Part shown: piece by piece, positions 500 to 19,212 of the stretch | Layout: each line of letters starts with the position of its first letter | Numbering within the stretch: position 1 is the stretch's first letter | Assembly: GCF_010091925.1 (NCBI RefSeq) | Contig: NZ_WVID01000028.1 | Span: 1 to 64,000 of the forward strand | Reading direction: 5' to 3' | Source of the DNA: Nostoc sp. B(2019) | GTDB lineage: Bacteria > Cyanobacteriota > Cyanobacteriia > Cyanobacteriales > Nostocaceae | DNA length: 64,000 nucleotides | Made by a program: the position numbers and the translations under genes | The notes under the pieces: generated by a model | The model's input: only the letters and a program-made list of their open reading frames with translations | Database searches by the model: none | What the model was told of the DNA's origin: nothing

Positions 500-543
500 A
501 ATTTGCTTAATCAATAAGCTATTACTTATTGATTAAGCAAATT
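500..543. repeat. Perfect 19-bp inverted repeat over the stop codon of the KS/AT gene
   Basis: AATTTGCTTAATCAATAAG at 500-518 is followed by a 6-nt loop and its exact reverse complement at 525-543. The right arm is the last few codons and the TAA stop of the KS/AT gene, so the gene end is duplicated in inverted form just outside the gene. In the minus-strand mRNA it would form a strong hairpin, but it is followed by TATAGG rather than a U-run. A simple intrinsic terminator is therefore uncertain. It may instead be a scar of the adjacent MITE insertion. Confidence 0.75.
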
Positions 544-3500: not shown

Positions 3501-3891
3501 CTGCGACATTTCCCCCTTCTTGAATGTTTGCATCTTTCAAGGCGCGATCGGCAACCTTCAGCAGTAATAATTGTTGTGGGTTGAGTTTTCCTATTTCATT
3601 CGGGGGGATTTTGTAAGCTAAAGTATCAATTTCAAAATCTGTGATATATGCCCCTACGGGTGCTTTTCCATCTGCCAAACCGTACTCTTTGAGTAAGTTT
3701 TCTTGCTGTTCTATGCCATACCATCTTTGAGATGGCAGAGGAATAAAATGCTGTTTGCCATCATAAATACTACGTTCAAAAGCATCTAATCCATTACATT
3801 CGCCGAAAAAGGCATCCATGCCAACGATCGCAATTTTGGCTAGTGGCACAGGTTCAGCTATTTTGCTGATACTTTCTTGTTCAAGAGTCAT
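526..3891 (-). CDS. hglC: HglC-like ketosynthase-like/acyltransferase protein
   Basis: This 1121-aa protein is part of a heterocyst-glycolipid/PUFA-synthase-type complex. Residues about 18-490 are a ketosynthase fold. The catalytic Cys position (TAVETSAFKA, about residue 217) holds Glu, and the first active-site His region reads EVCGSG instead of EAHGTG, although the second His (KANIGH) is kept. This domain therefore looks like a chain-length-factor/decarboxylase-type KS. Residues about 600-930 are an acyltransferase with a GYSLGE nucleophile motif (Ser near 703), as in PfaB/HglC. The last 200 residues are low-complexity and unassigned. Its ATG overlaps the stop of the upstream KS gene by 4 bp (ATGA), which implies translational coupling. 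Confidence 0.8.
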   Translation of the reverse strand: MTLEQESISKIAEPVPLAKIAIVGMDAFFGECNGLDAFERSIYDGKQHFIPLPSQRWYGIEQQENLLKEYGLADGKAPVGAYITDFEIDTLAYKIPPNEIGKLNPQQLLLLKVADRALKDANIQEGGNVAVIIAAETEFSVHQLQQRWNSSWQIKDGLNAANIDLPADKVAQLETIVKDSIHHQVDIGEYLSYIANIMASRISALWNFTGPAFTVTAVETSAFKALEVAQMLLTTGEVDAVVVGAVDLAGGVENVLLRNQFAKVNTGINTLSYDQKANGWMIGEGAGAVVLKRYETAQQNGVGSGGGCVNVSANTSSDRIYAVIDAISFGQAHSISTDAETVNEVCNQAFQMAGIHPTEVNYVEVCGSGIPQEDVAEITGLLQAYPPQGNDLYCALGSVKANIGHTYVASGIASLIKTALCLYYRYIPATPNWSGVKTPEVWQGSPFYVATDSRSWLFGKDGIKRIAAINGMGCDGTYAHLILSEEPNQQERSSRYLQQTPYYLFPIAADERSSLLEALDDLQQNIENSSALSTTASQTFVTFQKRSQTKYTLAIAGRNQQELVKEIASARKGVNSAFERNTDWQTPIGSYFTAKPLGKTGGLAYVYPAAVNSYIGIGQNLFRLFPKVFDDSLFNSLANRATKIHQRLYPRSLQKLSARQMETLEQQLLDDSLSMFETEIAYSRLITTIIRDDFQVKPQCVFGYSLGETSMMVAQGVWSNFHGGSNTLNSSSLFGNKLSGPKNAVREYWGLTDTPDSQDNDFWSIYVLMATPSQVRECIKSENRVYLTQINTPEEVLIAGETAACQRVIETLGCNAFPAPFDHVIHCEPMRSQYDELVKLNNLPSKNIPDIVFYSAGDYQPITLDSEAIAHSIAKTQCEQLDFPRLVNRVYADGARIFLEAGAGSVCSRWIDQILTNQEHITVSLNRKGVDDHTSIVKALAKLLSHQVELDLSPLYSFTEETANQSTTTLKTVNLGGNSITATILSEENRKLFQNQAGIMHKSAEHAPIFRELEIINSLQTPTIINNNYCDPKEQLQPSKSNVNQQKVTQSLQDPVNVSNYFSYTGSLSNFNKSQFQKLIVNNCSTSKAHAAFLEARQESSKQLSAIIQLQLSTVQNLLNQ

Positions 3892-5246
3892 TTTACTATG
3901 TTTCCTTGTTCAAGAATTAAATGGGAATTAGTTCCACCAAAGCCAAAAGCACTTAACGCTACACGTTTAGTTGCCGTATTATTTGGCCATGTTGTGGTAG
4001 TTCTCACAATATTTTTGGCGGAAATTATACTATCCTCAGAACCTAGAGGTTCAGTAACATTAATAGTTGGTGGAATCACGCCATAAGACATACTTAAAAT
4101 CGTCTTAGTCAAGCTCACCATACCCGCAGCAACTAATAAGTGACCAACATTAGCTTTAGTAGAACCAACTAAAGGCGCTGCTTGGTGTTGACCAAAAAAG
4201 GTTTCTATAGAGTTGAATTCGGTGCTATCTCCTAATAAAGTGCCAGTAGCATGACACTCCATATAATCAATTGCCTTTGGACTGAGTTTTGCCTCAGTGT
4301 AAGCTCTCTCAAAAGCTAATATTTGTCCTTTAGAATTAGGGCTGAGCAGATGCTTACCTTTGCCATCATTAGAAAGCCCATTTCCGCAGACAGTTGCTAA
4401 AATTTTATCACCATCTTTGATGGCATCATTATATCGTTTCAGCACGACCATGCCAATCCCTTCGGATGTAATTAGTCCTCTAGATGATTTATCTAAGGGA
4501 CGGCTGAGATCGTTTTCTGGATAACCTTGAATACCAGAAAATAACATCCGTAAAAACAGCGGATCTGAACAGCTAATAGCTCCAGCTAACATCAAATCAG
4601 CTTTGCGTGACCACAGATAATGTGATGCTAATTTAATCGCATAAAATGCTGAAGAACAAGCAGCATCTATACAAAAATGGGTACTAGATAGAGCAAAAGC
4701 TTTGGCAATTAAGGCAGCGGGAAAGCCTGATACCATAGCATTATATGGGGACGCTTTAGCTGCGGTTGGTAGTGCAGGCAGACGAAAATCTTGTTGTAAA
4801 AGTTCTGCGATCGCAGATTGAATCGTTTGCTGATAAATTGGTGCTAATAGTTGATTAGACGATTTGGTTGGTAAGGATAAAGCCCCCAAAATAACGCCAC
4901 ATTTTGAGAGAACAGATTGTCTTGCATAACCACTCTGCTCAATCGCTTGTTTAGCAGCATAAAGCGACCATTTAAATGTATCATCCAAGCTTTCTAAAAA
5001 ACTTGATGGCAAATTATATTCATCAGCATTAAACTTAAAGTCGCGGACGAACCCTCCCTTAAGTGAATATATTCTTTCTGGCTGTCCTTTAAGTGAATCA
5101 TAAAATATACCGGGTTCTAATCCCATTTCCTCAACAGTGACAGATGAGATGGAATCTTTTTCCTCAGTAAGATTCTGCCAAAATTGTTCAGGGTTTGTAG
5201 CATCAGGAAAGAGACACGATAATCCAATAATTGCTATTTTTTCCAC
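3888..5246 (-). CDS. hglD: HglD-like beta-ketoacyl synthase
   Basis: This 452-aa stand-alone ketosynthase has an intact Cys-His-His triad: DAACSSAF (Cys near residue 195), ECHATGT (near 330) and NVGHLLVA (near 369). It also has the C-terminal FGFGGTNSHL signature. It would perform decarboxylative Claisen condensation on ACP-bound chains. The neighbouring protein has a Cys-less KS, so the two may form a KS/CLF-like pair. It starts at GTG 5246 preceded by GAGGAG, lies 43 bp downstream of the KR-DH gene, and overlaps the next gene by 4 bp. Confidence 0.85.
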   Translation of the reverse strand: MEKIAIIGLSCLFPDATNPEQFWQNLTEEKDSISSVTVEEMGLEPGIFYDSLKGQPERIYSLKGGFVRDFKFNADEYNLPSSFLESLDDTFKWSLYAAKQAIEQSGYARQSVLSKCGVILGALSLPTKSSNQLLAPIYQQTIQSAIAELLQQDFRLPALPTAAKASPYNAMVSGFPAALIAKAFALSSTHFCIDAACSSAFYAIKLASHYLWSRKADLMLAGAISCSDPLFLRMLFSGIQGYPENDLSRPLDKSSRGLITSEGIGMVVLKRYNDAIKDGDKILATVCGNGLSNDGKGKHLLSPNSKGQILAFERAYTEAKLSPKAIDYMECHATGTLLGDSTEFNSIETFFGQHQAAPLVGSTKANVGHLLVAAGMVSLTKTILSMSYGVIPPTINVTEPLGSEDSIISAKNIVRTTTTWPNNTATKRVALSAFGFGGTNSHLILEQGNIVK

Positions 5247-5289
5247 TACTTATATTCTCCTCATCTAATAGGCATTAAAAGCTGAGTGC

Positions 5290-7029
5290 TTAAGAGTGAT
5301 TGCGCCTCAGTGATTGCATAGGCCAAATAACTGCTTTGGCTCCTAGAATACGTGAGTATACTTGTCTTTGAAGATTATGGATAATGAAATCGGCAGTTAA
5401 ACTGGTATCTGTTTTTGCCTTGATTTCACAAGAAACGTAAAAAGGTTCATTGCATGGTATGGGTGCAAATTGTTCATATTTGTTTAACTGTCCAGGTAGA
5501 CAAACTTCTTGATGAAAATGGTTTAACCAAATCCATAACGGTTGTGTACTTAAATCAGTTGTATAAGGGTTAACCCAATGAACAGGAAACTGTCCTTGTT
5601 GCTGATCTTTGATTGCTGTCCAAAAGCATTCCACAGTAATCTTTTCAGAACTAATATTTAAAACTTTAGTGATTTGCTGAAAAGCTGGCCCATGAAATAA
5701 GGTTGATTCTCCATTTTGATAAAAAGATTTGCCAGTATTAGTAATAATTTTATCTTCTGTTAAATCTACTGCATCATAAATTGGTGGAGCAGGTATTTTT
5801 CTCAGAAGTTTAATAAAAGCACTAAAGTGATAATGGGTTTTTCCTTCGGGGGTTTTACTTAAAATCGTAGTCTTAAATTCAATTTCTTGAGAATCTATTT
5901 TAGAAAGTTCTTGCAGTTCTAAAATATGTTCGTTAGCCAGGGTATGATTGAAAGTAATACCCTTTAAAACTTTGAACTCTCTACAACTGAAAAATTGATA
6001 GCCTGGGTACATTTCTTCACAGGCATTCATCATCCATGACATTGCACAGGTAGCGGGTAGTACTGGATAACCAGCAATCACATGATCGAGCAAAAAGGGA
6101 TTATCTTCAAGTGTGATCCGTCGCCGAATTTGATAGCTTTTCAGTTCTGAATCTATCGATGCAGGAGGTGGAACAATTGGATTACCTATCACAACTTGTG
6201 TAGTTGCGTGATGAGCAGGATGCAATTCATTAACTAACATTTGTGTGCCGACTTCTACAGGAATAATATCTATCCCCCGTTCAGCAAAAGCCTTTTTGAG
6301 TTCTGGAGTCACCATCCCACTATCCCATCCTCCCCAATTAATCGCCACTACATGAGATTGTGGATAATATTGCTTCATTAAATGGGCTGATTTATTAAGA
6401 ATTTCGTTAGCGATCGCATAATCGGTTTGACCGATATTTCCATAGAAACCTGTTACTGAAGAGAACAAAACTAAATGTTGAATTTGATTAGGTGGAATGC
6501 AAGACAAGAGATTTTCTAAACCTTTAACTTTCGCATTATAAACTTTTTCAAAATCTTGTTCAGTTTTCTTTTCAATCAACTTATCAGCTAAATTTCCCGC
6601 GCCGTGGATGATTCCCGTAATCGCACCTAGGCGTTTCACAGCAGTAGCTAGTTTCTCCTGTAAAGCCGCTATATCTGTAACATCAACGCTAATATATTCT
6701 GCTTGTGCTCCTGTTTGTTGAATTGAAGAGAGGGTTTTTTGAATTTCGCGGCTGGAGGTAATCTGGTTATAGACTTTTTGCACACTCATAGGTGTGGGCT
6801 TTTCTCCTTGGGTAACAAGATTCTCCATAATGCGTTTTTTCAATACAGATTCTTCCAAACAATCCTGAGCAAAATCTGGCTCAGTTTCTAAAACTTCAGA
6901 ACGACCAAGGAGGATAAATTTACATGGTTGGTGCTGTGCCAATTTAATAGTACATTGAGCCGTAATGCCTTTTGCACCGCCACTTACGACAAACACAGAT
7001 GATGGGCTAAGTTGCGCTATTTGTGTCAT
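5290..7029 (-). CDS. Catalytic ketoreductase half plus dehydratase (hotdog) protein
   Basis: This 579-aa two-domain protein starts directly with the NADPH-binding Rossmann fold of a PKS ketoreductase (VSGGAKGITA near residue 18). The catalytic Ser-Tyr-Asn residues are in FSSVTGFYGNIGQTDYAIAN. The structural KR subdomain that normally precedes this is absent here and sits at the C-terminus of the 1805-aa PKS two genes upstream. From about residue 300 it is a dehydratase-type double hotdog with HVIAGYPVLP (HxxxGxxxxP, His near 315) and FHGPAFQ near 446. It would reduce and dehydrate the beta-keto intermediate, and the PfaD-like reductase could finish saturation. Confidence 0.8.
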   Translation of the reverse strand: MTQIAQLSPSSVFVVSGGAKGITAQCTIKLAQHQPCKFILLGRSEVLETEPDFAQDCLEESVLKKRIMENLVTQGEKPTPMSVQKVYNQITSSREIQKTLSSIQQTGAQAEYISVDVTDIAALQEKLATAVKRLGAITGIIHGAGNLADKLIEKKTEQDFEKVYNAKVKGLENLLSCIPPNQIQHLVLFSSVTGFYGNIGQTDYAIANEILNKSAHLMKQYYPQSHVVAINWGGWDSGMVTPELKKAFAERGIDIIPVEVGTQMLVNELHPAHHATTQVVIGNPIVPPPASIDSELKSYQIRRRITLEDNPFLLDHVIAGYPVLPATCAMSWMMNACEEMYPGYQFFSCREFKVLKGITFNHTLANEHILELQELSKIDSQEIEFKTTILSKTPEGKTHYHFSAFIKLLRKIPAPPIYDAVDLTEDKIITNTGKSFYQNGESTLFHGPAFQQITKVLNISSEKITVECFWTAIKDQQQGQFPVHWVNPYTTDLSTQPLWIWLNHFHQEVCLPGQLNKYEQFAPIPCNEPFYVSCEIKAKTDTSLTADFIIHNLQRQVYSRILGAKAVIWPMQSLRRNHS

Positions 7030-7085
7030 AAATACTCATATTTGAGTAGATAGTTTGCTAATAAATAGATAGATGCTTGCAGCAA

Positions 7086-7871
7086 TTATTTGTTCAAGAT
7101 TACATATCTAGACATACTGCCAGCACCATCTACGACCATTGGATGTCCAGTAATAAAGGAAGCTTTATCTGAACACAGAAAAACTGCAATCTCAGCAATT
7201 TCTTCTGGGGTTCCAAAACGCCCTATAGGTACTTGATTAATTGCCACTTCCTTAAAATCAGAATTTTGAGAAACTTGGCTTTCAAACAATGGGGTATTGT
7301 GGATAAAGCCAGGGCATAATGCATTGATACGGATACCCACTTTTGCATATTCTAAAGCAGCTGTTTTAGTTAGTCCAATGACGCCATACTTGCTAACAGT
7401 ATAGGCGGGAAAACGTTGTAATCCACTTCCCAAACCTGCTATTGAAGACATATTAAGAATGACTCCACCGCCTTGTTCTCGCATATAAGGAATCTCGTAT
7501 TTCATGCACAACCAGATGCTCTTAAGATTGATGTTAAGCACTCGATCCCAGTTTTCCTCAGTACAGGCGGCTGTTGAACTACTATGTCCCAAAATACCAG
7601 CATTGTTAAATGCACAATTGAGCGCTCCATAAGTTTCAACAGTTTTTTTGATGAGTTGCTTAACCTCAACCGCCTTGGTAACGTCAGTCTTAATAAAAAT
7701 AGCTTCCCCGTTAGCTATCTCAATCTTGCTGACTGTATCTTCACCACCTGTAACATCTACATCAGCAACGACGACCTTTGCTCCTGCTTTGGCAAATGCT
7801 AGTGCAGAAGCTCTACCAATCCCCGAACTTCCTCCAGTCACTAAAACGACTTTTTCTGTAAATACTGACAC
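7086..7871 (-). CDS. Short-chain dehydrogenase/reductase (classical SDR)
   Basis: This 261-aa classical SDR has the cofactor motif TGGSSGIGRA near residue 13, NNAG near 90, and an active-site Ser with YTVSK (Tyr-x-x-x-Lys) near 157-161. The C-terminus (SFITGHPMVVDGAG) is typical of glucose-1-dehydrogenase/FabG-like enzymes. It lies between the two genes that carry the halves of the split KR, in the same orientation, so it may supply an extra carbonyl reduction of the lipid product. The ATG at 7871 follows GAGG with 8-bp spacing. The substrate cannot be told from sequence. Confidence 0.85.
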   Translation of the reverse strand: MSVFTEKVVLVTGGSSGIGRASALAFAKAGAKVVVADVDVTGGEDTVSKIEIANGEAIFIKTDVTKAVEVKQLIKKTVETYGALNCAFNNAGILGHSSSTAACTEENWDRVLNINLKSIWLCMKYEIPYMREQGGGVILNMSSIAGLGSGLQRFPAYTVSKYGVIGLTKTAALEYAKVGIRINALCPGFIHNTPLFESQVSQNSDFKEVAINQVPIGRFGTPEEIAEIAVFLCSDKASFITGHPMVVDGAGSMSRYVILNK

Positions 7872-8025: not shown

Positions 8026-11000
8026 TTAACGTAGCTTGTGATCAGCAATGAGCGTGACTCGTCCCTGTGAACCGTAAGCAACTTCACTAATATAAAGATT
8101 TGGGTCGTGAAGTTCAGAAATGATATGTTGTGTTGATTGCTTGGGATCTAAATTGGGACTTAAGTCGATCGCCCGCGCAAATACCTTTGGCCATTCCCAT
8201 CTCAGGGTTTTGGTTAATCCAAATAAACCAGCGCCGATCGCACCAAAGTTGACTTTGTATTCCAACCCAAAAGCTCCATCAAGATGAGCTACGGTGCAGA
8301 AACAACTACGTCCATAACGCGCCGCTTCATTTAACGATTGTTTGAGATGTTTTGCGATCAAAAACACATGCTTGACGATCGCCTTTTCCTGTTCGAGATA
8401 AGAGATGCTTCCGCTGTCTGCTGTAAATACAGGATGTAGGTGGATAAAGGCCCCAATCGCCCCGCAGTGAGATGCGATCGCCTGCAATTGTTGTTGAAGA
8501 TGTTCTTCACTTAAGTTCTCCAAGGTTACGCGAGTCACACCCTCGGTTAAAGGCGATCGCTCAGGAATCAGCGATTGCGGGAAACTTAAAACCACTACTT
8601 TCCAGCCTTGTTCAATCAGAGAATGAGCCAATTTAGAAGTAGTGAGGGAACCATCATCGGTTATTAAGCTGATGTATCCCTCTGGTAAACTGAAATCCAA
8701 ATAATCTGGTGGCGGTAAGGTTTTGAGTTTGACTGGACAGCGGGGGATATTCTGGATTATTTGAGGTGGCTGCTGCTCAAACTCATGCTCAGACTTTTTT
8801 TTTTCACCACCAACTAACTGTTGGAGATAATCAACAATTTGACCGATGGTGCGTAGTTCTCCCAAATCTTCGACATTTGGCTTGGGTAAATTGGGGTACA
8901 TTTCTTGCATCGCCCCCAAAATTTCCACACGTTTGATGGAGTCAATCCCCAAGTCCGCCTCCATGTCCATGTCTAGCTCTAGCATCTCGACTGGATAGCC
9001 AGTTTTATCACTGGTGATGGTTAACAAGGCTTGACTCAAGTCTGCGTCATTAGTTGCTGCTATTTCTGTTTCTGTGCTGAATGCTACGATTTCGTTGATT
9101 GGGGATTGGGTAGATTCTTCGCTCAGTTCGTTGGCTGGTGAATTTTTGACTTCCAAAGCGAGATTTGACGTGCGGGATTGGAGATACTCTACAACTTGAC
9201 CGATTGTGCGTAATTCTGCCACTTCTTCTACATTACCCTTGGGCAAATCTGGGTACATTTCTTGTAGCGCCCCCAGGATTTCCACACGTTTGATGGAATC
9301 AATCCCTAAATCTGCCTCCATGTCCATGTCCATTTCCAGCATTTCGACTGGGTAGCCTGTCTTATCACTAATGACATTGAGCAGAGTTTGACTCAGAGTG
9401 GCTTGATCTACAGGGGTTACTGTGGCGATCGCAGTGTGGCTATCCTTGAGTGCAATCATCTCCTGGACTGTTGCTTGATGATTTGCACCATCACCATTAG
9501 TTGACACTTGACTCAGGATGGCCTGATCTACAGAGGCTACTGTGGCGATCGCAGTGTGGCTATCCTTGAGTGCAATCATCTCCTGAACTGTTTTTGCTTG
9601 ATGATTTGCACCATCACCATTAGTTGAAAGCTTAGAGTTGCTGCTAAAGCCGTTGCTCGTTACAACCACAACAGATTGATCTTCTTGGAGCAGTGGAGAT
9701 GCAGAGATAACATGGTGGTTAGTGACATTACCAAGAAGCTGCTGCTCGTAGTGTTGTTGGAGCAATTGGAAGAAGTTTTTAGTATATTCCTGCTGATAGT
9801 TTAGATATTCTTCATGAACACGGAGGGTTTCAGCTTGATGATCGTGAAACCGCATAATATTGCGCTCTGAACTGGAGAGTGCAAGTTGCTGGGTTTGCGC
9901 TTTTTGCTCAGTGAATTTACCATTTCCCCACAACGATTGCTGTTGCTGCATTAGTTGGAAAAAGGTTTTGGTATATTCTGTCTGATGCTTCAAAGATTGC
10001 TCGTGAACCTGCAAGACGCTACGTTGATGACGATTGAACTCGATTAGAGTGTACTCTAAGCTGTCTATAGTTCTTTGGGAAGGGTCTGAACTTAGTTGCG
10101 GAGAATTGATATCCAGTTCGGCTGATTGCTCGTTGTTCACAGATTTCGCTCCACCGTTGACTGCTTTGCTCTCCATTGGTTCAAATTGATTAGTTAGCCA
10201 GCGCGTTGGGGAGCCAGCACCGTTATCAGCCAGCGCTACGGAAGGGTTTTCCGACTTAGGCGACTGATTTAGTGTTTCCACCGTAGGATTTGGCGTAGTC
10301 AAGAGGTTTGTTGTTGCTATATCTTCGATCAATATTGCTGGTTTCTTGCCGTTGCTGGCGGTTAATGTCACTTTATGCCCATTTTGCAGCGCTTTTTCAA
10401 AAGACTGCTTCGTTTTTTCAGACACATAGTTAGTGCTATCTAGGCGGACATTCAGCATATTATTTGTCTGAACTTCTGGGATTTCGCTCTCGATTTGATA
10501 GGGGTCGAAGTTGATCAAAGGTAAGCCAGCGACGCGCAATTGCACAACAGCTTCTCGGAGAGTGCGATCGCTATCTTTGGAAGAATTAGCATTTAAAGCC
10601 ACAGCTATGTGAGGGCGATCGCTCAGGATATCTTTTACCAAGCTTGTGAGAATACTTCGCGGCCCGAATTCAATAAAGCAGGAACCGCCTTCAGCATAAA
10701 TATTTTCAATCTCCTGCTTAAACAACACTTGATTCCTCAGATGTTCTTTGAGGACTTTTTGAATAACTTGCGGCTCCCTTGGGTAAGGCTTTCCTGTGAC
10801 ATTGGTATAAACCGGAATTTGTGGCTCTTTGAAAGTAACTTTCTCAATTGCTTTGGCAAAGGGTTTCTGTGCATGAGCCACGAGTGGTGTATGAAAAGCC
10901 GCTGAAACTCCCAGCAAAACGGTAGAGAAGCCTTGAGTTTTCAGGATTTCTTGCACTTTGGCAATTTCAGCTTTTGTTCCTGCCAAAACCACCTGATGAT

Positions 11001-13443
11001 GAGAATTCAAGTTAGCAACGGTAACTTGAGGGAAATTCTTGATTAGTTCTGTAACCTGGTTAACATCCCCTTTCACCGCCAGCATAGCTCCCGCATCAAA
11101 TTGGGGATCTTTGGGTGCAGCCATAGCTTGACCCCTAGCTTTGACCAGGAAGAAGTAATCTTCTTCACTCAGAACGCCCGCAGCCCACAAAGCCGTCAGT
11201 TCTCCAAAGCTATGTCCGGCGACAAAATCTGGCTCAAATCCAGCTTGTTGCAATATCTTGTACAAACCAACGCTAAAAGCTGCGATCGCAGGCTGTGCAT
11301 AAGCTGTCAGTTGTAATCTCTCCAACTGGGTAGCTTTTTGCTCTGAATCAAAGACGGGAGCAGGGAAAACGACTTCTGAAAGGGTGTGCAAACCGTCTTG
11401 GCGCAACAGACTGTCCATTTCAGTATAAATCTGCTGCAAGTCAGGGAAGTTTACCAAGATTTCCCGCCCCATCTCCAAATATTGCGAGCCTTGTCCAGAA
11501 AACAGCGCTACTACCTTACCTTTTGTCGCCATCCCAGTTTTGCGGTAGTAGATTCCTTGAGGATGTTCCCAGGATTCTGCTTGCGGTTTGTTTGTCAGCC
11601 AGTCAATACTTGTTTGCAACAAGTCACAAGCCTGAGCCAGAGAATTAGCAACAAATCCAACTCTGGCATTGGCGACAGGAATTTCTAAAGATTTACACGC
11701 CGAAATCAGTTCTGTATAGTGCTGCTTTCCGGCATCGGATTGCAATTGAAGCTGGACTTCTTGAGCGCGTGACAACAATTGCTCAGGTGTTGGCGCAAAT
11801 AAAAGCACCTGCTGAGAACTGTTGTGTAAACGACGACAAGGAAGATTGCGATCGCTTTTGTATTCTTCTAGGACAACATGATAATTTGTGCCACCAAAAC
11901 CAAAAGAACTTACACCTGCACGTCTTGGTTGGCCATCGGCGTGAATCCAAGGCCTCGTTTCTGTATTTAAATAAAATGGAGAGCTATCAATTTTCAGTTT
12001 CGGGTGCGGTTTGGTGATGTTAATTGTCGGTGGCAATACTTTGTGGTGTAAAGCCAAAGCCGTTTTGATCAGACTCGCTGCACCCGCGGCCGCTTTTGTA
12101 TGTCCTATTTGTGATTTGACAGTTCCAAGAGCAATATATTGTTTCCTAGAATTGTTTTCGCCAAAAACCTCTTTTATAGACAAGAATTCAGTTGGATCTC
12201 CCACCATCGTGCCTGTGCCGTGTGCTTCAACTAAACCGACACTCGTAGGCGAAAATCCAGCATCTTCATAAGCACGACGCAAGGCTTTGACTTGACCTTC
12301 TGAACTCGGCGCATAGATGCTTTTATAGCGACCGTCGCTAGAAGTCCCAATGCCTTTGATGACTGCATAGATTCGGTCATTGTCTCGTTCAGCATCCTCA
12401 AGGCGCTTCAGCACCAACATCCCGACACCTTCACCCATCATCATCCCATCGGATTCGGCATCGAAAGGTTTGACATTCTGGCTTGGGGAAACAGCAGGAG
12501 TTTTGCTGAAACACATATAAGCAAAAATCGAGTTATCGGTGTCAACACCGCCAGTAAGCATCATATCGGCTCGATGCTCGGTTAACTCACTCACAGCCAT
12601 TTTGAGAGCGCTCAATGAACTAGCACAGGCGGCATCTACTACACAGTTAGTCCCCCCTAAATCCAGGCGGTTGGCAATTCGTCCAGCAACTACGTTAGCT
12701 AGCATTCCGGGGAAGGCGTTTTCTTCCCATTGCACATAAGCGCTTTTGATTTTCTCGATAATTTTTTGCGTATCTTCATTGGATAAGCCGCTGCTTTTAA
12801 GGGCTTTTTCCCAAACCGGATACTGCAATCTTGCACCTAATGGAACCGCCAACTGCCTTCCTGTTGCTGCACCCAAAATCACCCCAGTGCGTTGGCGATT
12901 AAACTGTCGAGATTCGCCGTAACCTGCATCTTCAATTGCTGCTTTAGCAACTACCAAACCTAACAACTGTGAAATATCTGTGACTTCCAGGATGTTGGGC
13001 GGAAGCCCAAATTCCAGCGGATTAAAGTCAATTTCGGGGATAAATCCGCCTCGTTTGCAGTAGGTTTTGTCAGGTGTTCTGGGGTTGGGATCGTAATAAT
13101 CTTCTATACTCCAACGCGAAGGAGGCACATCAGTAATACAATCAACCTTTTGAACAATCTTTTCCCAATATTCCTGTAAATTTTTGGATTGCGGAAATAT
13201 CGAAGCCATGCCGATAATCGCAATATGATTTTGTTGCCGTTGTCTAGTGGCTTTGGTGCTTAGGGGTGCATTTTCAACCATAATTTTTTTCACCTGTATG
13301 AGCTTGAGCAGGGACTTCTCACAGTTGTTCACTTCGTCTTGCAACTGTGCTAAAACAGCTTCAACTCTAGAAGCAGCCATGACTTCATCTTCACTATCGT
13401 GCTTGTGAAATTGTAGATATGTTGAGATCAGTTCCTCAATCAA
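8026..13443 (-). CDS. hglE: HglE-like type I polyketide synthase (KS-AT-ACP-ACP-half KR)
   Basis: This 1805-aa megasynthase is the first gene of the operon. A short N-terminal helical docking-like region is followed by a KS (residues about 72-530, with DAACASS, EAHGTGT, GHTKAAAG and FGFGGTNYHV). Next comes an AT (about 650-930, FSGQGSQYLEM and GHSFGE). A long Gln-rich linker carries two related helical repeats (HEQSLKHQTEYTKTFFQL and HEEYLNYQQEYTKNFFQL). Two tandem ACPs each have LGIDSIKR, with phosphopantetheine Ser near 1380 and 1500. The C-terminal 250 residues match the structural half of a PKS ketoreductase and end near EVAYGSQGR. It resembles PfaA/HglE and probably builds a long-chain lipid. 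The needed PPTase is not in the window. Confidence 0.87.
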   Translation of the reverse strand: MIEELISTYLQFHKHDSEDEVMAASRVEAVLAQLQDEVNNCEKSLLKLIQVKKIMVENAPLSTKATRQRQQNHIAIIGMASIFPQSKNLQEYWEKIVQKVDCITDVPPSRWSIEDYYDPNPRTPDKTYCKRGGFIPEIDFNPLEFGLPPNILEVTDISQLLGLVVAKAAIEDAGYGESRQFNRQRTGVILGAATGRQLAVPLGARLQYPVWEKALKSSGLSNEDTQKIIEKIKSAYVQWEENAFPGMLANVVAGRIANRLDLGGTNCVVDAACASSLSALKMAVSELTEHRADMMLTGGVDTDNSIFAYMCFSKTPAVSPSQNVKPFDAESDGMMMGEGVGMLVLKRLEDAERDNDRIYAVIKGIGTSSDGRYKSIYAPSSEGQVKALRRAYEDAGFSPTSVGLVEAHGTGTMVGDPTEFLSIKEVFGENNSRKQYIALGTVKSQIGHTKAAAGAASLIKTALALHHKVLPPTINITKPHPKLKIDSSPFYLNTETRPWIHADGQPRRAGVSSFGFGGTNYHVVLEEYKSDRNLPCRRLHNSSQQVLLFAPTPEQLLSRAQEVQLQLQSDAGKQHYTELISACKSLEIPVANARVGFVANSLAQACDLLQTSIDWLTNKPQAESWEHPQGIYYRKTGMATKGKVVALFSGQGSQYLEMGREILVNFPDLQQIYTEMDSLLRQDGLHTLSEVVFPAPVFDSEQKATQLERLQLTAYAQPAIAAFSVGLYKILQQAGFEPDFVAGHSFGELTALWAAGVLSEEDYFFLVKARGQAMAAPKDPQFDAGAMLAVKGDVNQVTELIKNFPQVTVANLNSHHQVVLAGTKAEIAKVQEILKTQGFSTVLLGVSAAFHTPLVAHAQKPFAKAIEKVTFKEPQIPVYTNVTGKPYPREPQVIQKVLKEHLRNQVLFKQEIENIYAEGGSCFIEFGPRSILTSLVKDILSDRPHIAVALNANSSKDSDRTLREAVVQLRVAGLPLINFDPYQIESEIPEVQTNNMLNVRLDSTNYVSEKTKQSFEKALQNGHKVTLTASNGKKPAILIEDIATTNLLTTPNPTVETLNQSPKSENPSVALADNGAGSPTRWLTNQFEPMESKAVNGGAKSVNNEQSAELDINSPQLSSDPSQRTIDSLEYTLIEFNRHQRSVLQVHEQSLKHQTEYTKTFFQLMQQQQSLWGNGKFTEQKAQTQQLALSSSERNIMRFHDHQAETLRVHEEYLNYQQEYTKNFFQLLQQHYEQQLLGNVTNHHVISASPLLQEDQSVVVVTSNGFSSNSKLSTNGDGANHQAKTVQEMIALKDSHTAIATVASVDQAILSQVSTNGDGANHQATVQEMIALKDSHTAIATVTPVDQATLSQTLLNVISDKTGYPVEMLEMDMDMEADLGIDSIKRVEILGALQEMYPDLPKGNVEEVAELRTIGQVVEYLQSRTSNLALEVKNSPANELSEESTQSPINEIVAFSTETEIAATNDADLSQALLTITSDKTGYPVEMLELDMDMEADLGIDSIKRVEILGAMQEMYPNLPKPNVEDLGELRTIGQIVDYLQQLVGGEKKKSEHEFEQQPPQIIQNIPRCPVKLKTLPPPDYLDFSLPEGYISLITDDGSLTTSKLAHSLIEQGWKVVVLSFPQSLIPERSPLTEGVTRVTLENLSEEHLQQQLQAIASHCGAIGAFIHLHPVFTADSGSISYLEQEKAIVKHVFLIAKHLKQSLNEAARYGRSCFCTVAHLDGAFGLEYKVNFGAIGAGLFGLTKTLRWEWPKVFARAIDLSPNLDPKQSTQHIISELHDPNLYISEVAYGSQGRVTLIADHKLR
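9421..9625 (-). repeat. Tandem duplication (period about 120 bp) in the PKS pre-ACP linker
   Basis: Two near-identical stretches beginning TGTGGCGATCGCAGTGTGGC lie at 9421 and 9541 and each encodes QEMIALKDSHTAIATV preceded by STNGDGANHQA. The copies differ by a few substitutions and a 3-bp indel that keeps the frame. The near-identity points to a recent in-frame duplication of linker just upstream of the first ACP. Confidence 0.85.
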
Positions 13444-13628
13444 TGAGGTAAATTGAAATTAGATTTAGAGGAAATACTTCTGTTGACAAATAAGTTGTGG
13501 ATGGCTTCAAGGCTACAACATAAATTATTGAGCGGCTTGAGCTTGGATAGTTTCATACAAGAAGACTGATCCTACTTCGTGTCATCCTATTAAATTGCCA
13601 CTTGCGCTTATACTAGATTGGTTAGTTG

Positions 13629-13661
13629 TGTATCGCAATTGATATGCAACTTATATGCAAC
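13629..13661 (-). promoter_or_regulatory. Three tandem 11-bp direct repeats upstream of the PKS operon (site 1)
   Basis: Read on the minus strand the units are GTTGCATATAA (13661-13651), GTTGCATATCA (13650-13640) and the weaker ATTGCGATACA (13639-13629), exactly abutting. They lie about 186 bp upstream of the PKS start codon and point in the same direction as the operon. An 11-bp head-to-tail period is one helical turn and is typical of OmpR/PhoB-class response-regulator sites. Related pairs occur at 14170 and 14908. The role as an operator is inferred. Confidence 0.55.
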
Positions 13662-13725
13662 TGAATCTGTCTTGCTAGATAAAATGTTTGTTCATAACTT
13701 TGTCGATGATTTCAGATTAACAGTA

Positions 13726-14109
13726 CTAACTTTTGGTTTGCTCATCTACCGATGATGATTGGGTGGATGAATCATCATCTGTATGACAAACTTCTAGAGA
13801 ATTGCTTTCAAAATTAGGGTCTTCATCTCTTTCCCTTATTATCGCCTGGCGCTGAACAGCAGCTAATAGCTTTCGCTCAAGTTCACTAATACTAATTCCA
13901 AGCTCAGAAGCAGTTTTAGTTTTCCATTCTTCTAGCTCAAAATCATGATAATTGAGCCATTCATGCACTGCAAGGCGGGCCATCTCAGCTTTGCGAAGAG
14001 TCTGGCGGGCTGCATGAAAAATGAGCCGCTGGTTATCAAAGCTTGGCAATGAGAGCATGAATCGCTGTAGTTTCATTTTCTCTGAGGTCTTTGGGGCGAT
14101 CGCTGTCAC
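13726..14109 (-). CDS. Small protein of unknown function
   Basis: This 127-aa protein belongs to no family I recognise. It is mostly charged helix (residues 12-95, for example HAARQTLRKAEMARLAVHEW) with an acidic/Ser-rich C-terminal tail from residue 95. It has no signal peptide or membrane segment. It begins at GTG 14109; an ATG at 14076 is an alternative and neither has a strong Shine-Dalgarno. It sits between the PKS operon and the HTH gene, and a GTTGCAT tandem repeat lies 61 bp upstream. It may therefore be co-regulated with the PKS genes. Confidence 0.6.
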   Translation of the reverse strand: MTAIAPKTSEKMKLQRFMLSLPSFDNQRLIFHAARQTLRKAEMARLAVHEWLNYHDFELEEWKTKTASELGISISELERKLLAAVQRQAIIRERDEDPNFESNSLEVCHTDDDSSTQSSSVDEQTKS

Positions 14110-14169
14110 TCACATAGCTATAAAACTCTTATTTATTAGTATGTCATACAGTAGTAATTAATCACAGAA

Positions 14170-14191
14170 GTTGCATACAAATTGCATCTAT
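14170..14191 (+). promoter_or_regulatory. Tandem 11-bp direct repeat (site 2)
   Basis: GTTGCATACAA (14170-14180) is followed immediately by ATTGCATCTAT (14181-14191). It lies 61 bp upstream of the 127-aa gene, though on the opposite strand relative to that gene. It matches sites 1 and 3 in the core and in the 11-bp period. Confidence 0.5.
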
Positions 14192-14907
14192 CTTAGTTTA
14201 TATCGTTATTATCAACTGTTGAAACTGCTAAGAAAATAATTCAGATCAAAGTACGCTTCTACTGCACATAATTTATGTCAATCATCGGTGAGATACATAA
14301 ATTATATGTATTAGTTACACAAGAATGAAATTTATTATCAAAAAATTTTCATAATTCATAAATTAATTTATGAGGTTCATCAGCTTAGTTTTGTTTAAAT
14401 TGGCATTTTCAAACATTCCCTAGCGAACCTCTATCTAAACTGGAACCTTATTGACTACTAAAAGCGTAAAGTATAACAAACGACAATAAACTCTTGAGAG
14501 CAACTTTCGTAGCATATTAGACAAGTTTTATCTGCTCATGAACTGTGTATAAGAAAGTATTAGGCAATAAAATGTCTTGTATTTACATCTATCCTAAAGT
14601 TGATTTACTTTAAACTGACGTATATAGCAATTAATTAATTATTTTTTTGGTAAAATTGTTATTTATAAAGAATAAGATTTTGCAGCAATGTAAAGTTAAT
14701 CACTGGTAACTATATCTAAAGAATGACAAATAATATGAGCCAACAAGTATGTATCAGATTCCTTGTAAGCCACATCAATCATTTTGAGATGCTGGTTAAA
14801 ATCGCGGACAAAATACGGTTAATAACAACAGTATAAAGTGATGAGTTGTCACCACTAACTTAGCGAATTTATATCGAAGATAATGTTAGTTATTTAGCCT
14901 CAAATCT

Positions 14908-14929
14908 GTTGCATATGGGTTGCAATTGA
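14908..14929 (+). promoter_or_regulatory. Tandem 11-bp direct repeat (site 3)
   Basis: GTTGCATATGG (14908-14918) abuts GTTGCAATTGA (14919-14929), 233 bp upstream of the HTH-protein gene and in its orientation. It has the same core and period as sites 1 and 2, so the HTH gene could be in the same regulon or could autoregulate. Confidence 0.5.
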
Positions 14930-15161
14930 GTATCAAGCAGTTTATCGTATGTGATTAAATCAAGTAACTCCATACTGTTCGATTAGCACAATGGAGAGAT
15001 GCAAAGGTTAGGAGAATAAAAATATTAAATTCACCTGATTACTTCATCACTCTCTACATTCTTAAGCGCACAGTATTGCGATCCGATCTAATGTGATAAA
15101 CCGTTTTGTATAAAGCGTTCTGCATGATTTGATTTACACGAAACTATAAGGGCTTGCTGGC

Positions 15162-15485
15162 ATGAGACTATCTGAGCTAGATCCACTCATACCGCTAACT
15201 GAGTTAAGAGATGAACTCCTTAAGTTGCCAAAAGGCTACTCGTTTTATGAAGAAGAACTGGTAGACTTTTTATCCCGACGAAGATGGCCTGAGAGCAATC
15301 GCCGCATTGACAGGACAACTTTCTGGCGGTGGAGAAACGACAATGGAATTGAGCATCAAAAAGTATTCAGCAGATTGGATATCTTGAAACTCTGCCAAAT
15401 TTGCGATCACTACCGCATAGATGGAACTCGCAACGAATACTTAGCGATCATGAAAAAGAGCAAAGAGGTAGTATTAAACAAGTAA
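15162..15485 (+). CDS. Small predicted helix-turn-helix DNA-binding protein
   Basis: This 107-aa basic protein has a central stretch (RIDRTTFWRWRNDNGI, residues about 47-62) followed by FSRLDILKLCQICDHYRI. That arrangement resembles the recognition helix and following helix of MerR/excisionase-like winged HTH proteins. This is pattern recognition, not a confirmed family match. It begins at ATG 15162. It lies between the secondary-lipid PKS operon and the devBCA operon, with a GTTGCAT tandem repeat upstream, so it is the best local candidate for a regulator of the cluster. It has no receiver or sensor domain. Confidence 0.55.
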   Translation: MRLSELDPLIPLTELRDELLKLPKGYSFYEEELVDFLSRRRWPESNRRIDRTTFWRWRNDNGIEHQKVFSRLDILKLCQICDHYRIDGTRNEYLAIMKKSKEVVLNK

Positions 15486-15967
15486 AGATACATCTGCTTA
15501 GATGCATAAAGTACCAAATGGCTCTACTAAAAGCTGATTTTGCTAACGGATTGATGGATACTTTTTCAATAGTTCCATCTTCCTAGCTTTTTGTTTGCCA
15601 ACAATTTAGACCCGACGTTATCAGGCAATGCTATAAAGTGTACTTTATCTTCTATCTTGCTTGAAAATCTACTTTCATCCTGCGTTGTCAAGGCAGTTTG
15701 TGGGCATCTCTCGCATAAAGTGAGAGATCCCCCATTATCAGTGTCGTTCAAGTTGCTCTAAATCATTCAAACAACGCAGTCAGTAATTCAAAACTCCCAC
15801 TTCAAAATACAAAAATCTAATGGTGAGCAGTATTCTGGCTGCTTGCTGCATGTAAATTAAATGCACGAGTGGCGTAGATGCAAAAAGAAGTCTAATCGCT
15901 GGGAATCGGCGATTAGAACTTCAAAAGCAGCTTGTTGTTAGACATCGCTAACTTGGAAGACATGATT
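15486..15967. other. Leader region of the devBCA operon
   Basis: No convincing gene is visible. The region contains a single degenerate GCTGCATGTAA unit (15845-15855) resembling the 11-bp repeats. It also contains the hairpin at 15888-15921 just upstream of devB. I did not find an exact NtcA site (GTA-N8-TAC). Confidence 0.4.
15888..15921 (+). repeat. Stable hairpin immediately upstream of devB
   Basis: TCTAATCGC at 15891-15899 pairs exactly with GCGATTAGA at 15909-15917 around a 9-nt loop. Pairing can extend by AAG/CTT with one bulge. There is no following U-run, so it is not an ordinary terminator. It could be a leader structure or an operator palindrome 50 bp before the devB start. Confidence 0.6.
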
Positions 15968-17161
15968 ATGGTACACAAACAAAAGCAATCATTTATAAAA
16001 CCAGCAGGTTGGCCATCGATAATTTTGGCAGCTGCGCTGGCTGTAGCAACTGGTGCAGTTTTTATTTACAGCTTTTCACGATTTCAAAACTCTATATTGA
16101 ACCCTCCAGCACCGACCCCAAGCAGTCTTCCTACTATGGCTGCTGTTGCTGCTTTAGGACGTTTAGAACCGCAAGGGGAAGTTATTCGTCTTTCGGCCCC
16201 TGATTCCCAAGCGGGTGTTCGAGTTGCAAAACTCCTGGTAAATAAAGGAGACAGAGTGCGTCGAGGGCAAATAGTTGCAATTCTTGATAGTTACGATACT
16301 CGGCTTGCAGCCTTAGAAAAAGCCCGAAAACAAGTCCTAGTTGCTCAAGCTAGTTTTAATCAAGTAAAAGCGGGAGCAAAAGCTGGAGATATCTCTGCAC
16401 AACAAGCAACAATTGCTCGTTTAGAAGCTGAGTTAAATGGTGAAACTTCTGCACAACAAGCAACCATCGCTCGCATAGAGGCAGAGTTACGTAATGCTGA
16501 GAGCGAAAATCAGCGATATCAGCAGTTATATAAAGAAGGTGCAATTTCATCTTCCGACTCAGACGCTAGGCGTTTGCGAGTCGAGACTGTTCAACAGCAA
16601 CTCAACGAAGCTAAAGCTTCCCTCAATCGCACTATTGAAACTATTCAAAAGCAGTTAAGCGAAGCTAAAGCCAAGCTCAAGAGTATTGCTGAAATCCGTC
16701 CTACAGATATACAAGCAGCACAAGCTGATGTAGACAGTGCGATCGCCTCAGTGAAACAGGCTCAAGCAGACTGGGATTTAAGTGTTGTGCGATCGCCTAT
16801 AGCAGGACAAATCCTGAAAATTAATACTTGGCCCGGAGAAATTATTGGCAATACGGGAATAGCTAACTTAGGCCGCACACAGCAGATGTATGTAGTCGCA
16901 GAAGTCTATGAAACTGATATCCAAAAAGTGCGTTTAGGTCAGTCTGCTACCATTACTAGCGATGCTTTTTCAGGAAAACTACGAGGAACAGTCACAGATA
17001 TCGGTTTGCAAGTTGGTAAACAAAATATCTTCAGTAACAATCTACAATCAGACACAGATAATAAAGTTGTTGACGTAAAAATTCGCATCGATAACCTAGC
17101 AGATAACGAACAAGTTGCTGCTCTTACTGAATTACAAGTGCAGGTACTTATTGATATATAA
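15968..17161 (+). CDS. devB: DevB-type periplasmic adaptor (membrane fusion protein)
   Basis: This 397-aa HlyD/DevB-family protein bridges a DevCA inner-membrane ATPase and a TolC-like outer-membrane channel for glycolipid export. It has an N-terminal signal-anchor (IILAAALAVATGAVFIYSF, residues about 17-35) and a biotinyl-lipoyl half-motif. A long coiled-coil follows with a near-duplicated segment (SAQQATIARLEAELN then SAQQATIARIEAELR), then SPIAGQILKINTWPGE and a beta-barrel. I chose ATG 15968 because GGAAGA lies 7 bp upstream; earlier TTG and ATG codons at 15932 and 15962 are alternatives. It is the first gene of devB-devC-devA. Confidence 0.85.
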   Translation: MVHKQKQSFIKPAGWPSIILAAALAVATGAVFIYSFSRFQNSILNPPAPTPSSLPTMAAVAALGRLEPQGEVIRLSAPDSQAGVRVAKLLVNKGDRVRRGQIVAILDSYDTRLAALEKARKQVLVAQASFNQVKAGAKAGDISAQQATIARLEAELNGETSAQQATIARIEAELRNAESENQRYQQLYKEGAISSSDSDARRLRVETVQQQLNEAKASLNRTIETIQKQLSEAKAKLKSIAEIRPTDIQAAQADVDSAIASVKQAQADWDLSVVRSPIAGQILKINTWPGEIIGNTGIANLGRTQQMYVVAEVYETDIQKVRLGQSATITSDAFSGKLRGTVTDIGLQVGKQNIFSNNLQSDTDNKVVDVKIRIDNLADNEQVAALTELQVQVLIDI

Positions 17162-17325
17162 ACTTTTGGAATAACTTTATGGTGTGGGAAAAAGGTAAGG
17201 GGTAAACTTCAGCCTTTCCCTTTCCCTTTTAACCGAAATGCGGGTAATGGCATTGCACTACACTCAACATGACAATTCAAGTATTTTGACCAACAGTCTA
17301 ATCTGCATCACTTGAGGTTTACAAG

Positions 17326-18498
17326 ATGATTCTCAATATACCTCTAGCTTGGCTACAACTATCACAGCAAAAAGCTCGCTTTCTTGTAGCTTTAGCTGGT
17401 ATCGCTTTTGTGGCAGTTTTGATGTTTATGCAAATTGGTTTCCAAGATGCCCTTTATGCCAGTGCTACAAAGCTGCATACAAATCTTCAAGGAGATTTAT
17501 TTATCATCAGCGCCCAATATAAATCTTTGACATCCAGTCAAAGCTTTCCGCGTTGGCGTTTGTATCAGGCATTAGGCGTTGATGGCGTAGAATCAGTTAG
17601 CCCTTTGTATATGCAATTTGCTAAGCTAAAAAATCCAACTAATGGGCTAAAATTTCCACTATATGTGATTGGATTTGATCCAGTAAAATCAGTTTTTAAA
17701 TCTCCAGATGTTAAGCAGAATTATAAGCTATTACAAAACCCTAGGATAGTTTTATTTGACCGCGCTTCTAGACCGGAGTTTGGAGCGATCGCTCAAGATT
17801 TTGAGCAGGGTAAAAATGTGAATATTGAAATATTCAGCTATGCTGCATTAGTTGGTTATAAAGTTAAAATTGGTGGCTTGTTTAGCCTAGGGCCTTCCTT
17901 TGGAGTTGATGGCAATTTGATTGTTAGTTCCTCAGCTTTCCTCCGAATATTCCAAGATCGTTCGGTACAAAATATAGATATAGGATTAATTCAACTCAAG
18001 CCTGATGCTGACCCCAAAAAAGTTTTAGCAACTTTATCAGCTAGCTTACCTGAAGATGTTATAGTTGTTACTCGCAAGGATTTTATTACATTTGAAAAAA
18101 ACTATTGGACTCTCAGAACACCTATTGGATTTGTATTTAATCTGATGGTAACAATGGGGTTTGTTGTTGGTGTAATAGTTGTCTATCAAATCCTTTACAG
18201 TAATATTTCTACTCACTTAGCTGAATATGCAACCTTAAAAGCAATGGGCTTTAAAAACAAATATCTGCTGAGTGTAGTTTTTCAACAAGCTTTAATCTTA
18301 GCATCTCTAGGTTATGTTCCAGGTTTTGCTATATCCATAGCTCTGTATGATGTGGCAAAAAATGCAACTAAATTGCCAGTCAGCATGAGTTTAGACAAAG
18401 CAGCTATAGTATTGATTTCTGCAATTACAATGTGCTTAACTTCTGGATTTTTATCTACAAACAAACTCCGAAAGGTAGACCCAGCAGATATTTTCTAA
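17326..18498 (+). CDS. devC: DevC-type ABC exporter permease
   Basis: This 390-aa FtsX/MacB-like permease has an N-terminal membrane segment (FLVALAGIAFVAVLMFMQIGF, in part), a large periplasmic domain to about residue 265, and three C-terminal membrane segments (near 270-295, 320-345 and 360-380). That is the four-helix topology of DevC. It would form the inner-membrane part of a DevBCA exporter. ATG 17326 follows GAGG with good spacing. It lies 164 bp after devB and 24 bp before devA, in one apparent operon. Confidence 0.87.
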   Translation: MILNIPLAWLQLSQQKARFLVALAGIAFVAVLMFMQIGFQDALYASATKLHTNLQGDLFIISAQYKSLTSSQSFPRWRLYQALGVDGVESVSPLYMQFAKLKNPTNGLKFPLYVIGFDPVKSVFKSPDVKQNYKLLQNPRIVLFDRASRPEFGAIAQDFEQGKNVNIEIFSYAALVGYKVKIGGLFSLGPSFGVDGNLIVSSSAFLRIFQDRSVQNIDIGLIQLKPDADPKKVLATLSASLPEDVIVVTRKDFITFEKNYWTLRTPIGFVFNLMVTMGFVVGVIVVYQILYSNISTHLAEYATLKAMGFKNKYLLSVVFQQALILASLGYVPGFAISIALYDVAKNATKLPVSMSLDKAAIVLISAITMCLTSGFLSTNKLRKVDPADIF

Positions 18499-18522
18499 CT
18501 CAATGTTTATCTTCATAGAATA

Positions 18523-19212
18523 ATGAAACAAAAATTTATTGTTGACATCAAAAACCTTAATCAATACTTTGGCAGAAAAACATTGCGAAGTCAGATACTA
18601 TTTGATATTAATTTGAGGATCAAATATGGAGAAATTGTAATTATGACTGGGCCATCAGGCTCAGGAAAAACAACTTTACTAACTTTAATTGGTGGGTTAC
18701 GTTCTGTCCAAGAGGGAAGTCTAGAATTTCTAGGTCAGGAGCTTTATGGATCCAGTGATGAGCAATTAGTAAAAGTACGTCGCCATATCGGCTATATTTT
18801 TCAAGCTCACAACTTGCTAGATTTCTTAACAGCCCGACAGAATGTTCAAATGTCTCTTGAATTACACAAAATTATCCCCGAATCGGAAGCTTGCAGTAAG
18901 TCAGAAGCGATGCTTAATGCCGTTAAATTAGGCAATCGAATTAATTACTACCCACATGATCTCTCAGGAGGACAAAAGCAACGAGTAGCTATTGCTCGTG
19001 CTTTAGTAAGTCATCCTAAATTAGTATTAGCTGATGAACCTACTGCTGCTTTAGATAGCAAGTCAGGTCGAGATGTTGTTAACTTAATGCAGCAATTAGC
19101 TAAAGAACAGAATTGCGCCATTTTAATGGTTACTCACGACAACCGAATTTTAGATGTTGCCGATCGCATAATTCACATGGAAGATGGCCAGCTGATTAAA
19201 GAAGTTTTGTAA
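18523..19212 (+). CDS. devA: DevA-type ABC exporter ATPase
   Basis: This 229-aa ATP-binding subunit has Walker A GPSGSGKTT near residue 43, the Q-loop in IGYIFQAHNLL, the signature LSGGQKQR near 147, Walker B VLADEP near 166 and the switch His in MVTHDN. It belongs to the LolD/MacB/DevA group. With the upstream devB and devC it completes a tripartite glycolipid/lipid exporter ATPase. This paralogue sits next to a secondary-lipid PKS, so export of that product is the obvious inference. Confidence 0.9.
   Translation: MKQKFIVDIKNLNQYFGRKTLRSQILFDINLRIKYGEIVIMTGPSGSGKTTLLTLIGGLRSVQEGSLEFLGQELYGSSDEQLVKVRRHIGYIFQAHNLLDFLTARQNVQMSLELHKIIPESEACSKSEAMLNAVKLGNRINYYPHDLSGGQKQRVAIARALVSHPKLVLADEPTAALDSKSGRDVVNLMQQLAKEQNCAILMVTHDNRILDVADRIIHMEDGQLIKEVL

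Follow-up and report, generated by a model that had tools for sequence, protein, structure and literature searches.

Tandem 11-bp GTTGCA repeats at promoters of a PKS island in Nostoc sp. B(2019) and a 107-aa HTH-like protein as their candidate regulator

Nostoc sp. B(2019) carries, in the 64,000-nucleotide stretch of DNA analysed here (the window), three sets of tandem repeats with a GTTGCA(T) core and an 11-bp head-to-tail period, and these are well supported as genuine cis-regulatory direct repeats for a PKS operon, a small gene described preliminarily as encoding 127 aa (the 127-aa gene) and the gene of a 107-aa HTH-like protein (the HTH gene). The repeats resemble promoter elements built of 11-bp units (GTTGCATATGA-GTTGCAATTGA-GTATC...), stand in the same relation to the same genes in relatives, and recur with a common geometry at further promoters in genomes that mostly possess the HTH gene. 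Autoregulation, co-location and co-occurrence together form the pattern expected of a regulator with its operator; this pattern is a correlation, and it makes the 107-aa protein our candidate binder of the repeats, at somewhat better than even odds (a probability of about 0.57). From the types of genes that follow such promoters, the whole is read as an envelope-glycolipid regulon. All three repeats reported in the preliminary description were recovered with the position and spacing given there (Table 1).

Table 1. Features of the repeat-bearing region of the window
Feature	Position	Strand	Remarks
PKS-operon promoter repeats	13629..13661	-	GTTGCATATAA-GTTGCATATCA-ATTGCGATACA, three 11-bp units; same slot kept in relatives
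Probable PKS -10 box, TAGTAT	13610..13615	-	assigned by eye from sequence and alignment; 24 bp after start of last (ATTGC) unit
Repeat of the 127-aa gene	14170..14191 (exact match 14170-14186)	+	GTTGCATACAA-ATTGCATCTAT; slot kept in relatives
HTH-gene promoter repeats	14908..14934 (exact match 14908-14924)	+	GTTGCATATGG-GTTGCAATTGA-GTATC
Probable HTH -10 box, TATCGT	14943..14948	+	assigned by eye
Alternative HTH extended -10, TGATTAAAT	14952-14960	+	assigned by eye
First PKS gene of operon	8026..13443	-	KS-AT-ACP-ACP domains, PfaA-like
Remaining PKS operon in window	526..7871	-	SDR, KR-DH, KS, KS-type 1121-aa protein
107-aa HTH-like protein, proposed regulator	15162..15485	+	no Pfam or NCBIfam family at E<=0.001
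Small helical protein (127-aa gene)	13726..14109 from GTG; 13726..14076 from ATG	-	
devB-devC-devA-type exporter genes	15932..19212	+	3' of HTH gene; no own repeat

The pattern GTTGCATN4RTTGCA has exactly three exact matches in the 7,426,239-base genome, all of them inside 1.3 kb of the window, against expectations from the window base composition of 0.52 per genome and 0.0045 per 64 kb, and its reversed control has none genome-wide. The pattern is thus not frequent at random positions; no tandem copies had been noticed elsewhere by eye, and in this exact form the rest of the genome has none. With one mismatch, 52 matches (18 + 34) are obtained compared with 5 in the reversed control, and 19 of the 52 belong to one dispersed repeat family that is unrelated to the window locus. 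Weak profile matches in the window, at 4998 (score 6.2, within the KS gene), 13624 and 37197, are taken as chance or overlap.

The proposal that the repeats precede the PKS operon, the 127-aa gene and the HTH gene stands as regards their cis-regulatory role, with corrections to the start and orientation of the second. The PKS repeat consists of an exact pair at 13645-13661 and a third, weaker unit that reaches 13629. The 127-aa gene more probably starts at a conserved ATG at 14076, giving 116 aa, than at the GTG at 14109, and its repeat is oriented opposite to the gene, whereas those of the PKS and HTH genes share the orientation of their genes. A degenerate single unit had been placed before devB (15845) and is not supported: the profile scan of the window lists nothing there, on which ground a separate devB operator was rejected, and in the relatives' loci the RTTGCA-N5-RTTGCA scan found the stretch from the HTH gene to devB free of exact sites. 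Control of devBCA would, we assume, come about through read-through from the HTH promoter. A known non-coding RNA between the small genes was also considered and rejected, the single match being sub-threshold and to a eukaryotic snoRNA family.

Relatives were collected by scanning the 107-aa protein against contigs of one genome per species (84,980 species), which found 87, and the best 80 loci of the 87 (1.49 Mb) were kept; they span Nostocales and Microseira-type cyanobacteria. RTTGCA-N5-RTTGCA occurs 118 times in these 80 loci and its reversed control not once. As many as 112 of the 118 matches lie at most 2 kb upstream of the HTH gene (158,574 bp), leaving 6 in the other 1,330,416 bp, and 69 of the 80 loci contribute one or more of the 112; the repeats are thus kept at the orthologous clusters. 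All six outlying matches fall in two loci with a rearranged island (L164 and L165), in both of which the PKS repeat travels with the PKS gene. In L165, where the PKS gene is encoded on the plus strand beyond the 3' end of the HTH gene, its three-unit repeat (456+, 467+) accompanies it in unchanged relative orientation; the relocated gene of the small protein again has its repeat upstream in opposite orientation; and an HTH-type repeat precedes the HTH gene by 906 bp and has its orientation. The assignable repeats of L165 therefore keep both gene and orientation, indicating a one-to-one pairing of the three repeats with the three genes. Two sites are left over from the assignment to the regulon, one in L165 (-3175) and one in L164 (4949).

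The site is also retained at HTH genes that have no adjoining PKS gene (L141, L144, L152, L158, L162, L167 and others) and upstream of diverged second copies of the 107-aa gene (L161, L162, L166 and L167), and no such repeat was found upstream of a remote 107-aa homologue in genome G205 (L292). In those four loci the diverged second gene type adjoins a fatty-acid desaturase gene and a TetR-like gene (families annotated in L161). Among HTH loci with no adjoining PKS, a histidine-kinase gene, ethylene-receptor-like as annotated in L141, recurs in L141, L144, L146, L152, L153, L157 and L159.

The number of units varies among promoters. Most HTH promoters have two GTTGC units, aligned as GTTGCATATGG GTTGCAATTGA GTATCAATCAG TTTATCGT; those of the Microseira type (L168-L170) have three, aligned as GTTGCATGTAA GTTGCATATGA GTTGCAATTGA GTAGCAACCAG TTTACTAT; the PKS promoter of the window reads GTTGCATATAA GTTGCATATCA ATTGCGATACA CAACTAACCAA TCTAGTAT; and the PKS promoter of L136 has four GTTGC-type units. 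In the aligned examples the final GTTGC-type unit begins 24-25 bp before a TAnnnT -10 box, the boxes being assigned by eye, which would place TTGCAA or a variant of it at -35 with a spacer of 17-18 bp.

Promoters of the same build occur at a distance from the HTH gene (at least about 20 kb away, or on other contigs) in the form of 39 distinct sequences with the consensus GTTGCATATGAGTTGCAATTGAGTATCTCA-N6-TAATAT. All of the 38 that were checked for location are intergenic, as judged by ORF length only. A profile trained on these 39 distant promoters, none of which comes from the HTH gene, and used with a threshold at the 99.9th percentile of a null of 1,500 windows, detects, in 76 of 81 loci, a site no more than 400 bp before the HTH gene. 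Eight of the 76 sites are marginal, just over the threshold and under the null maximum, and belong to Dolichospermum-type loci, the HTH promoters of which are degenerate; the remaining five of the 81 loci have a copy of the site further upstream or a degenerate one. The HTH gene's own promoter is the most conserved site.

Of 192 genomes of the family, 103 carry the 107-aa gene, and a 243-genome sample of the order adds five genomes from other families (three close and two remote matches). A strict extended promoter is found in 24 of the 192 family genomes, namely in 23/103 with the HTH gene and 1/89 without it (Fisher p 3e-6), with 3 matches in the reversed control. Three of the 28 strict sites (in G154, G102 and G002) lie within ORFs and are chance-like, and after their removal 21 genomes with the HTH gene and none without it retain a site. 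The remaining sites include, in one case (G007:C198), the site that precedes the HTH gene itself, and several others belong to the same island as the HTH gene, at a distance of 20-30 kb from it. Relatedness is a confounder of this co-occurrence, but in a comparison made within one genus, on the 28 genomes of g7, the extended promoter accompanies the 107-aa gene in 7 of 11 cases and is found in none of 17 genomes that do not have the gene. A 25-bp pattern with at most one mismatch occurs in 68/103 family genomes with the HTH gene vs 11/89 without it; the former count contains the HTH gene's own site, so that the strict extended-promoter count is the cleaner test. In the order sample, exact matches to the 25-bp pattern are confined to the home genome and three genomes of other families that have close copies of the 107-aa gene, and with one mismatch 9/20 genomes with the gene vs 5/223 without it have a match (2 matches in the reversed control). 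These one-mismatch matches in genomes without the gene count against the 107-aa protein as the binder, as do the degenerate HTH promoters of Dolichospermum-type loci, the 80 of the 103 genomes with its gene that have no strict extended promoter, and the GTTGCAT-like repeats that follow a tRNA gene in genomes that do not have it (L225, L296).

An AF2 model of the 107-aa protein (pLDDT 88.2) predicts helices at residues 12-20, 30-41, 51-60, 71-85 and 90-106 and short strands at 28-29 and 68-69, an order that, to our reading, resembles a MerR-type winged HTH. A Foldseek search with the model returned nothing at E<=0.001 in PDB or BFVD, a MerR chain (5d90_C) ranking 25th at E 4.5, and assignment of the protein to a family by its fold was rejected in the absence of a significant structural match in these two databases; a profile search of PDB gave one weak match, to a phage protein (E 0.0036). 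The label "HTH" is a reasonable guess. A DRTTFWRWR stretch is nearly invariant among 30 sequences of the protein. The protein of the 127-aa gene, which has no Pfam or NCBIfam family at E<=0.001, was also considered as the binder; its AF2 model consists of two long helices and a low-confidence tail (pLDDT 77), and it was rejected since tblastn does not detect it in loci of the Dolichospermum and Sphaerospermopsis types, and exact repeats persist in most of these. In the family sample its gene is confined to genomes with the 107-aa gene (48/48).

We propose that the repeats serve as operators in sigma-70-type promoters of a single regulon, and that a small DNA-binding protein, for which the 107-aa protein is the likeliest candidate, would bind in several copies, head to tail, on the 11-bp units (unit consensus GTTGCATATGA GTTGCAATTGA GTATCTCA). 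Since the last GTTGC unit would lie at the -35 position, 17-18 bp before TAnnnT, the bound protein would probably substitute for a poor -35 element and activate transcription. Besides its own gene, the targets would be the 127-aa gene, the PKS operon, another operon of that lipid island with SDR and glycosyltransferase genes and, in some species, other envelope-glycoconjugate genes elsewhere in the genome. Activation is the favoured sign of regulation, held with less assurance than the identity of the binder, and a simple activator geometry does not explain the site of the 127-aa gene, which is a misfit in its opposite orientation. The mode of binding proposed for the 107-aa protein would be analogous to that of BldC of Streptomyces, a small MerR-like winged-HTH protein that, according to the available part of PMC5859096, occupies a variable number of head-to-tail direct repeats at developmental promoters, copy number varying in both systems; a related oligomeric winged HTH appears in the accessible portion of PMC11963761. 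The differences, as far as the same part of the BldC source goes, are that BldC has 68 aa and a 9-bp AATTxxxxC repeat, and that the searches of PDB and BFVD gave no significant match of the 107-aa protein to it in sequence or structure. A bolder version, in which the family of ~107-aa proteins would be the master regulator of a surface-glycolipid or envelope regulon, forming BldC-like oligomers on 11-bp GTTGCA repeats in place of the -35 element and partnered by the small helical protein, is offered tentatively.

In favour of a chance origin of the tandem repeats, or of a neutral repeat family devoid of regulatory role, matches to GTTGCATN4RTTGCA with at most two mismatches are no commoner in the window than expected (7 observed vs 5.2 expected, hence no enrichment); dispersed repeat families with a GTTGCA core also exist. 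However, the exact occurrence is unique to the window in the genome, the position is conserved across the 80 loci from Nostocales to Microseira, the repeats move with their genes, and distant loci have the same promoter geometry, results that contradict a chance origin and leave it hardly any probability. Among regulatory readings, repression has to be weighed against activation whichever protein is the binder. Small regulators are often autorepressors, and a protein bound to the repeats, which overlap the probable -35 position, might block RNA polymerase there, in which case the HTH gene would be negatively autoregulated. Activation nevertheless fits better with the overlapped TTGCAA, which is a poor -35, and with units that extend upstream rather than over the start site, and we consider a repressor operator possible, at clearly less than even odds.

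OmpR/PhoB-class response regulators are common in cyanobacteria, and one encoded elsewhere might bind the repeats, the 107-aa gene then being merely one of its targets. It is to this class that the preliminary description had assigned the repeats, from their 11-bp period only, and the trait itself, tandem direct repeats with a period of ~11 bp near the probable -35, is present. Moreover, of the 19 loci with no adjoining PKS, 7 have a histidine-kinase gene (ETR1_N, PAS, HisKA_2, as annotated in L141) ~2-4 kb upstream of the HTH gene, a recurrence that keeps the two-component idea open. The layout is also that of the pho box of PhoB/SphR, which the available text of PMC1906773 describes as 8-bp repeats with a 3-bp linker, likewise giving head-to-tail direct repeats of 11-bp period upstream of a sigma-70 -10 box. 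The two differ in the phase to the -10 box and in the core, since the pho box has CTTAACCT/CTGTACTA, and the CTTAACCT-type core is absent from our repeats, which have GTTGCA; they differ, too, in that our repeats are linked to the gene of a 107-aa protein that has no recognised receiver domain, and to envelope rather than phosphate genes. The HLR1 box of RpaB, in the consulted part of PMC9241938, likewise places short direct repeats at promoters of cyanobacteria, and its core is similarly shaped, the box being two (G/T)TTACA(T/A)(T/A) (KTTACAWW) repeats 2 nt apart; it is set apart by its period of 10 (8+2) and TTACA core from the 11-bp period and TTGCA found here. Scans of 20 window proteins, all encoded left of 36 kb, and of 8 neighbours of the HTH gene in other loci revealed no response-regulator gene. 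The extended promoters, furthermore, hardly occur outside genomes that carry the 107-aa gene, and the HTH promoter, the most conserved site, is kept where no PKS adjoins. Co-occurrence and autoregulation thus favour the 107-aa protein; the OmpR/PhoB assignment is not supported, and a binder of that class, the main rival, seems to us doubtful. Another regulator that is co-inherited with the 107-aa gene would be compatible with the co-occurrence data; a TetR-like gene (annotated in L161) lies near the HTH gene in 4 of the 19 loci with no adjoining PKS.

An SDR family recurs 3' of the distant promoters, with 12 homologues at such sites or close to them, and these promoters also precede genes for GT2 and GT4 glycosyltransferases, ABC exporters, methyltransferases, FkbM, NDP-sugar epimerases and WavE, as well as a C39-ABC exporter, a PPIase, a GNAT protein and some family-less proteins. 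In L181 a polysaccharide-export protein is encoded behind a related repeat of another type. Glycosyltransferases, methyltransferases, SDR proteins and exporters behind the same promoter suggest that the product may be a decorated envelope glycolipid. A search of the home genome for a 27-bp pattern with at most three mismatches gave 7 matches, including the HTH and PKS sites as well as matches with three mismatches on contigs C11 and C54. A fourth home-genome site, C33:53628-53654, has one mismatch, is intergenic and has an SDR gene ~425 bp downstream, with FMO and GT2 genes next in line. The relative G105 has the equivalent SDR operon ~28 kb from its HTH gene, past the PKS operon and a gene for a PapA-like acyltransferase, from which it follows that C33 and the window contig (C30) are probably one lipid island divided by the assembly. 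The promoter signature may thus help to locate parts of a pathway that are scattered or split by assembly. Among the matches listed, sites away from the HTH gene are intergenic in 41/57 cases in genomes with the HTH gene, a figure inflated by a multi-copy element, vs 9/31 in genomes that do not have it, the latter being the sites fetched of 37.

The window contains PfaA-like KS, AT and KR-DH genes together with a DevBC-type exporter, and the PKS operon probably extends beyond the contig start, its continuation being seen in G105, where the island proceeds with genes for a TubC_N-domain protein, the PapA-like acyltransferase, a methyltransferase, GT2, an ABC exporter and SDR proteins. By gene types, rather than gene by gene against PCC 7120, the window island can be likened to the hgl-like islands of heterocytous cyanobacteria, which the portion available of PMC11804610 (PNAS 2025) presents as a second, smaller heterocyst-glycolipid-type PKS and exporter set of unknown product, with homologues of hgdCB and hglEAFGCA in five ORFs; that portion describes no regulator or promoter element. 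The island of G105 differs by the addition of the genes for a PapA-like acyltransferase, a glycosyltransferase, a methyltransferase and SDR proteins. A literature search by phrase, judged from titles and the openings of abstracts, found no description of the GTTGCA repeat motif. A direct-repeat operator with an autoregulated regulator is of a known kind; the GTTGCA regulon and its candidate regulator appear undescribed in the literature searched, and the promoter signature and the candidate regulator make the regulon testable.

Several other repeat elements were encountered in the course of these searches. Two home-genome sites (C57:15088 and C66:3820; GTTGCATACATGATGCAAATGAGTAT...) have copies in genus mates and no ORF of at least 90 aa within 2 kb downstream in the direction of the site, and were therefore left out of the regulon as a repeat element. 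Units of the type GATGCATTAACATTGCA, mostly with 21-bp spacing, constitute a separate repeat family at C13:264592-264692, C18:19-182, C42:4693-4772 and C56:9-67. A GTTGCATAGAAGTTGCATAACAGnA-type element is situated 83-84 nt after a tRNA gene in L225, L296, L297, L298 and L299, the loci covered by the RNA scan, and is also carried by L295; as a tRNA-adjacent element it occurs in genomes with and without the 107-aa gene, and it may be either a distinct conserved element or the site of a second regulator. A multi-copy intergenic element, GTTGCATGAAAGTTGCATATAACTTTAC..., for which six loci scanned gave no Rfam match, is present in two genomes of genus g18 (G065 and G093; L173, L174, L175, L177, L179, L202, L203 and L207), and an element similar to it occurs in genus g9 (L185, L186 and L188).
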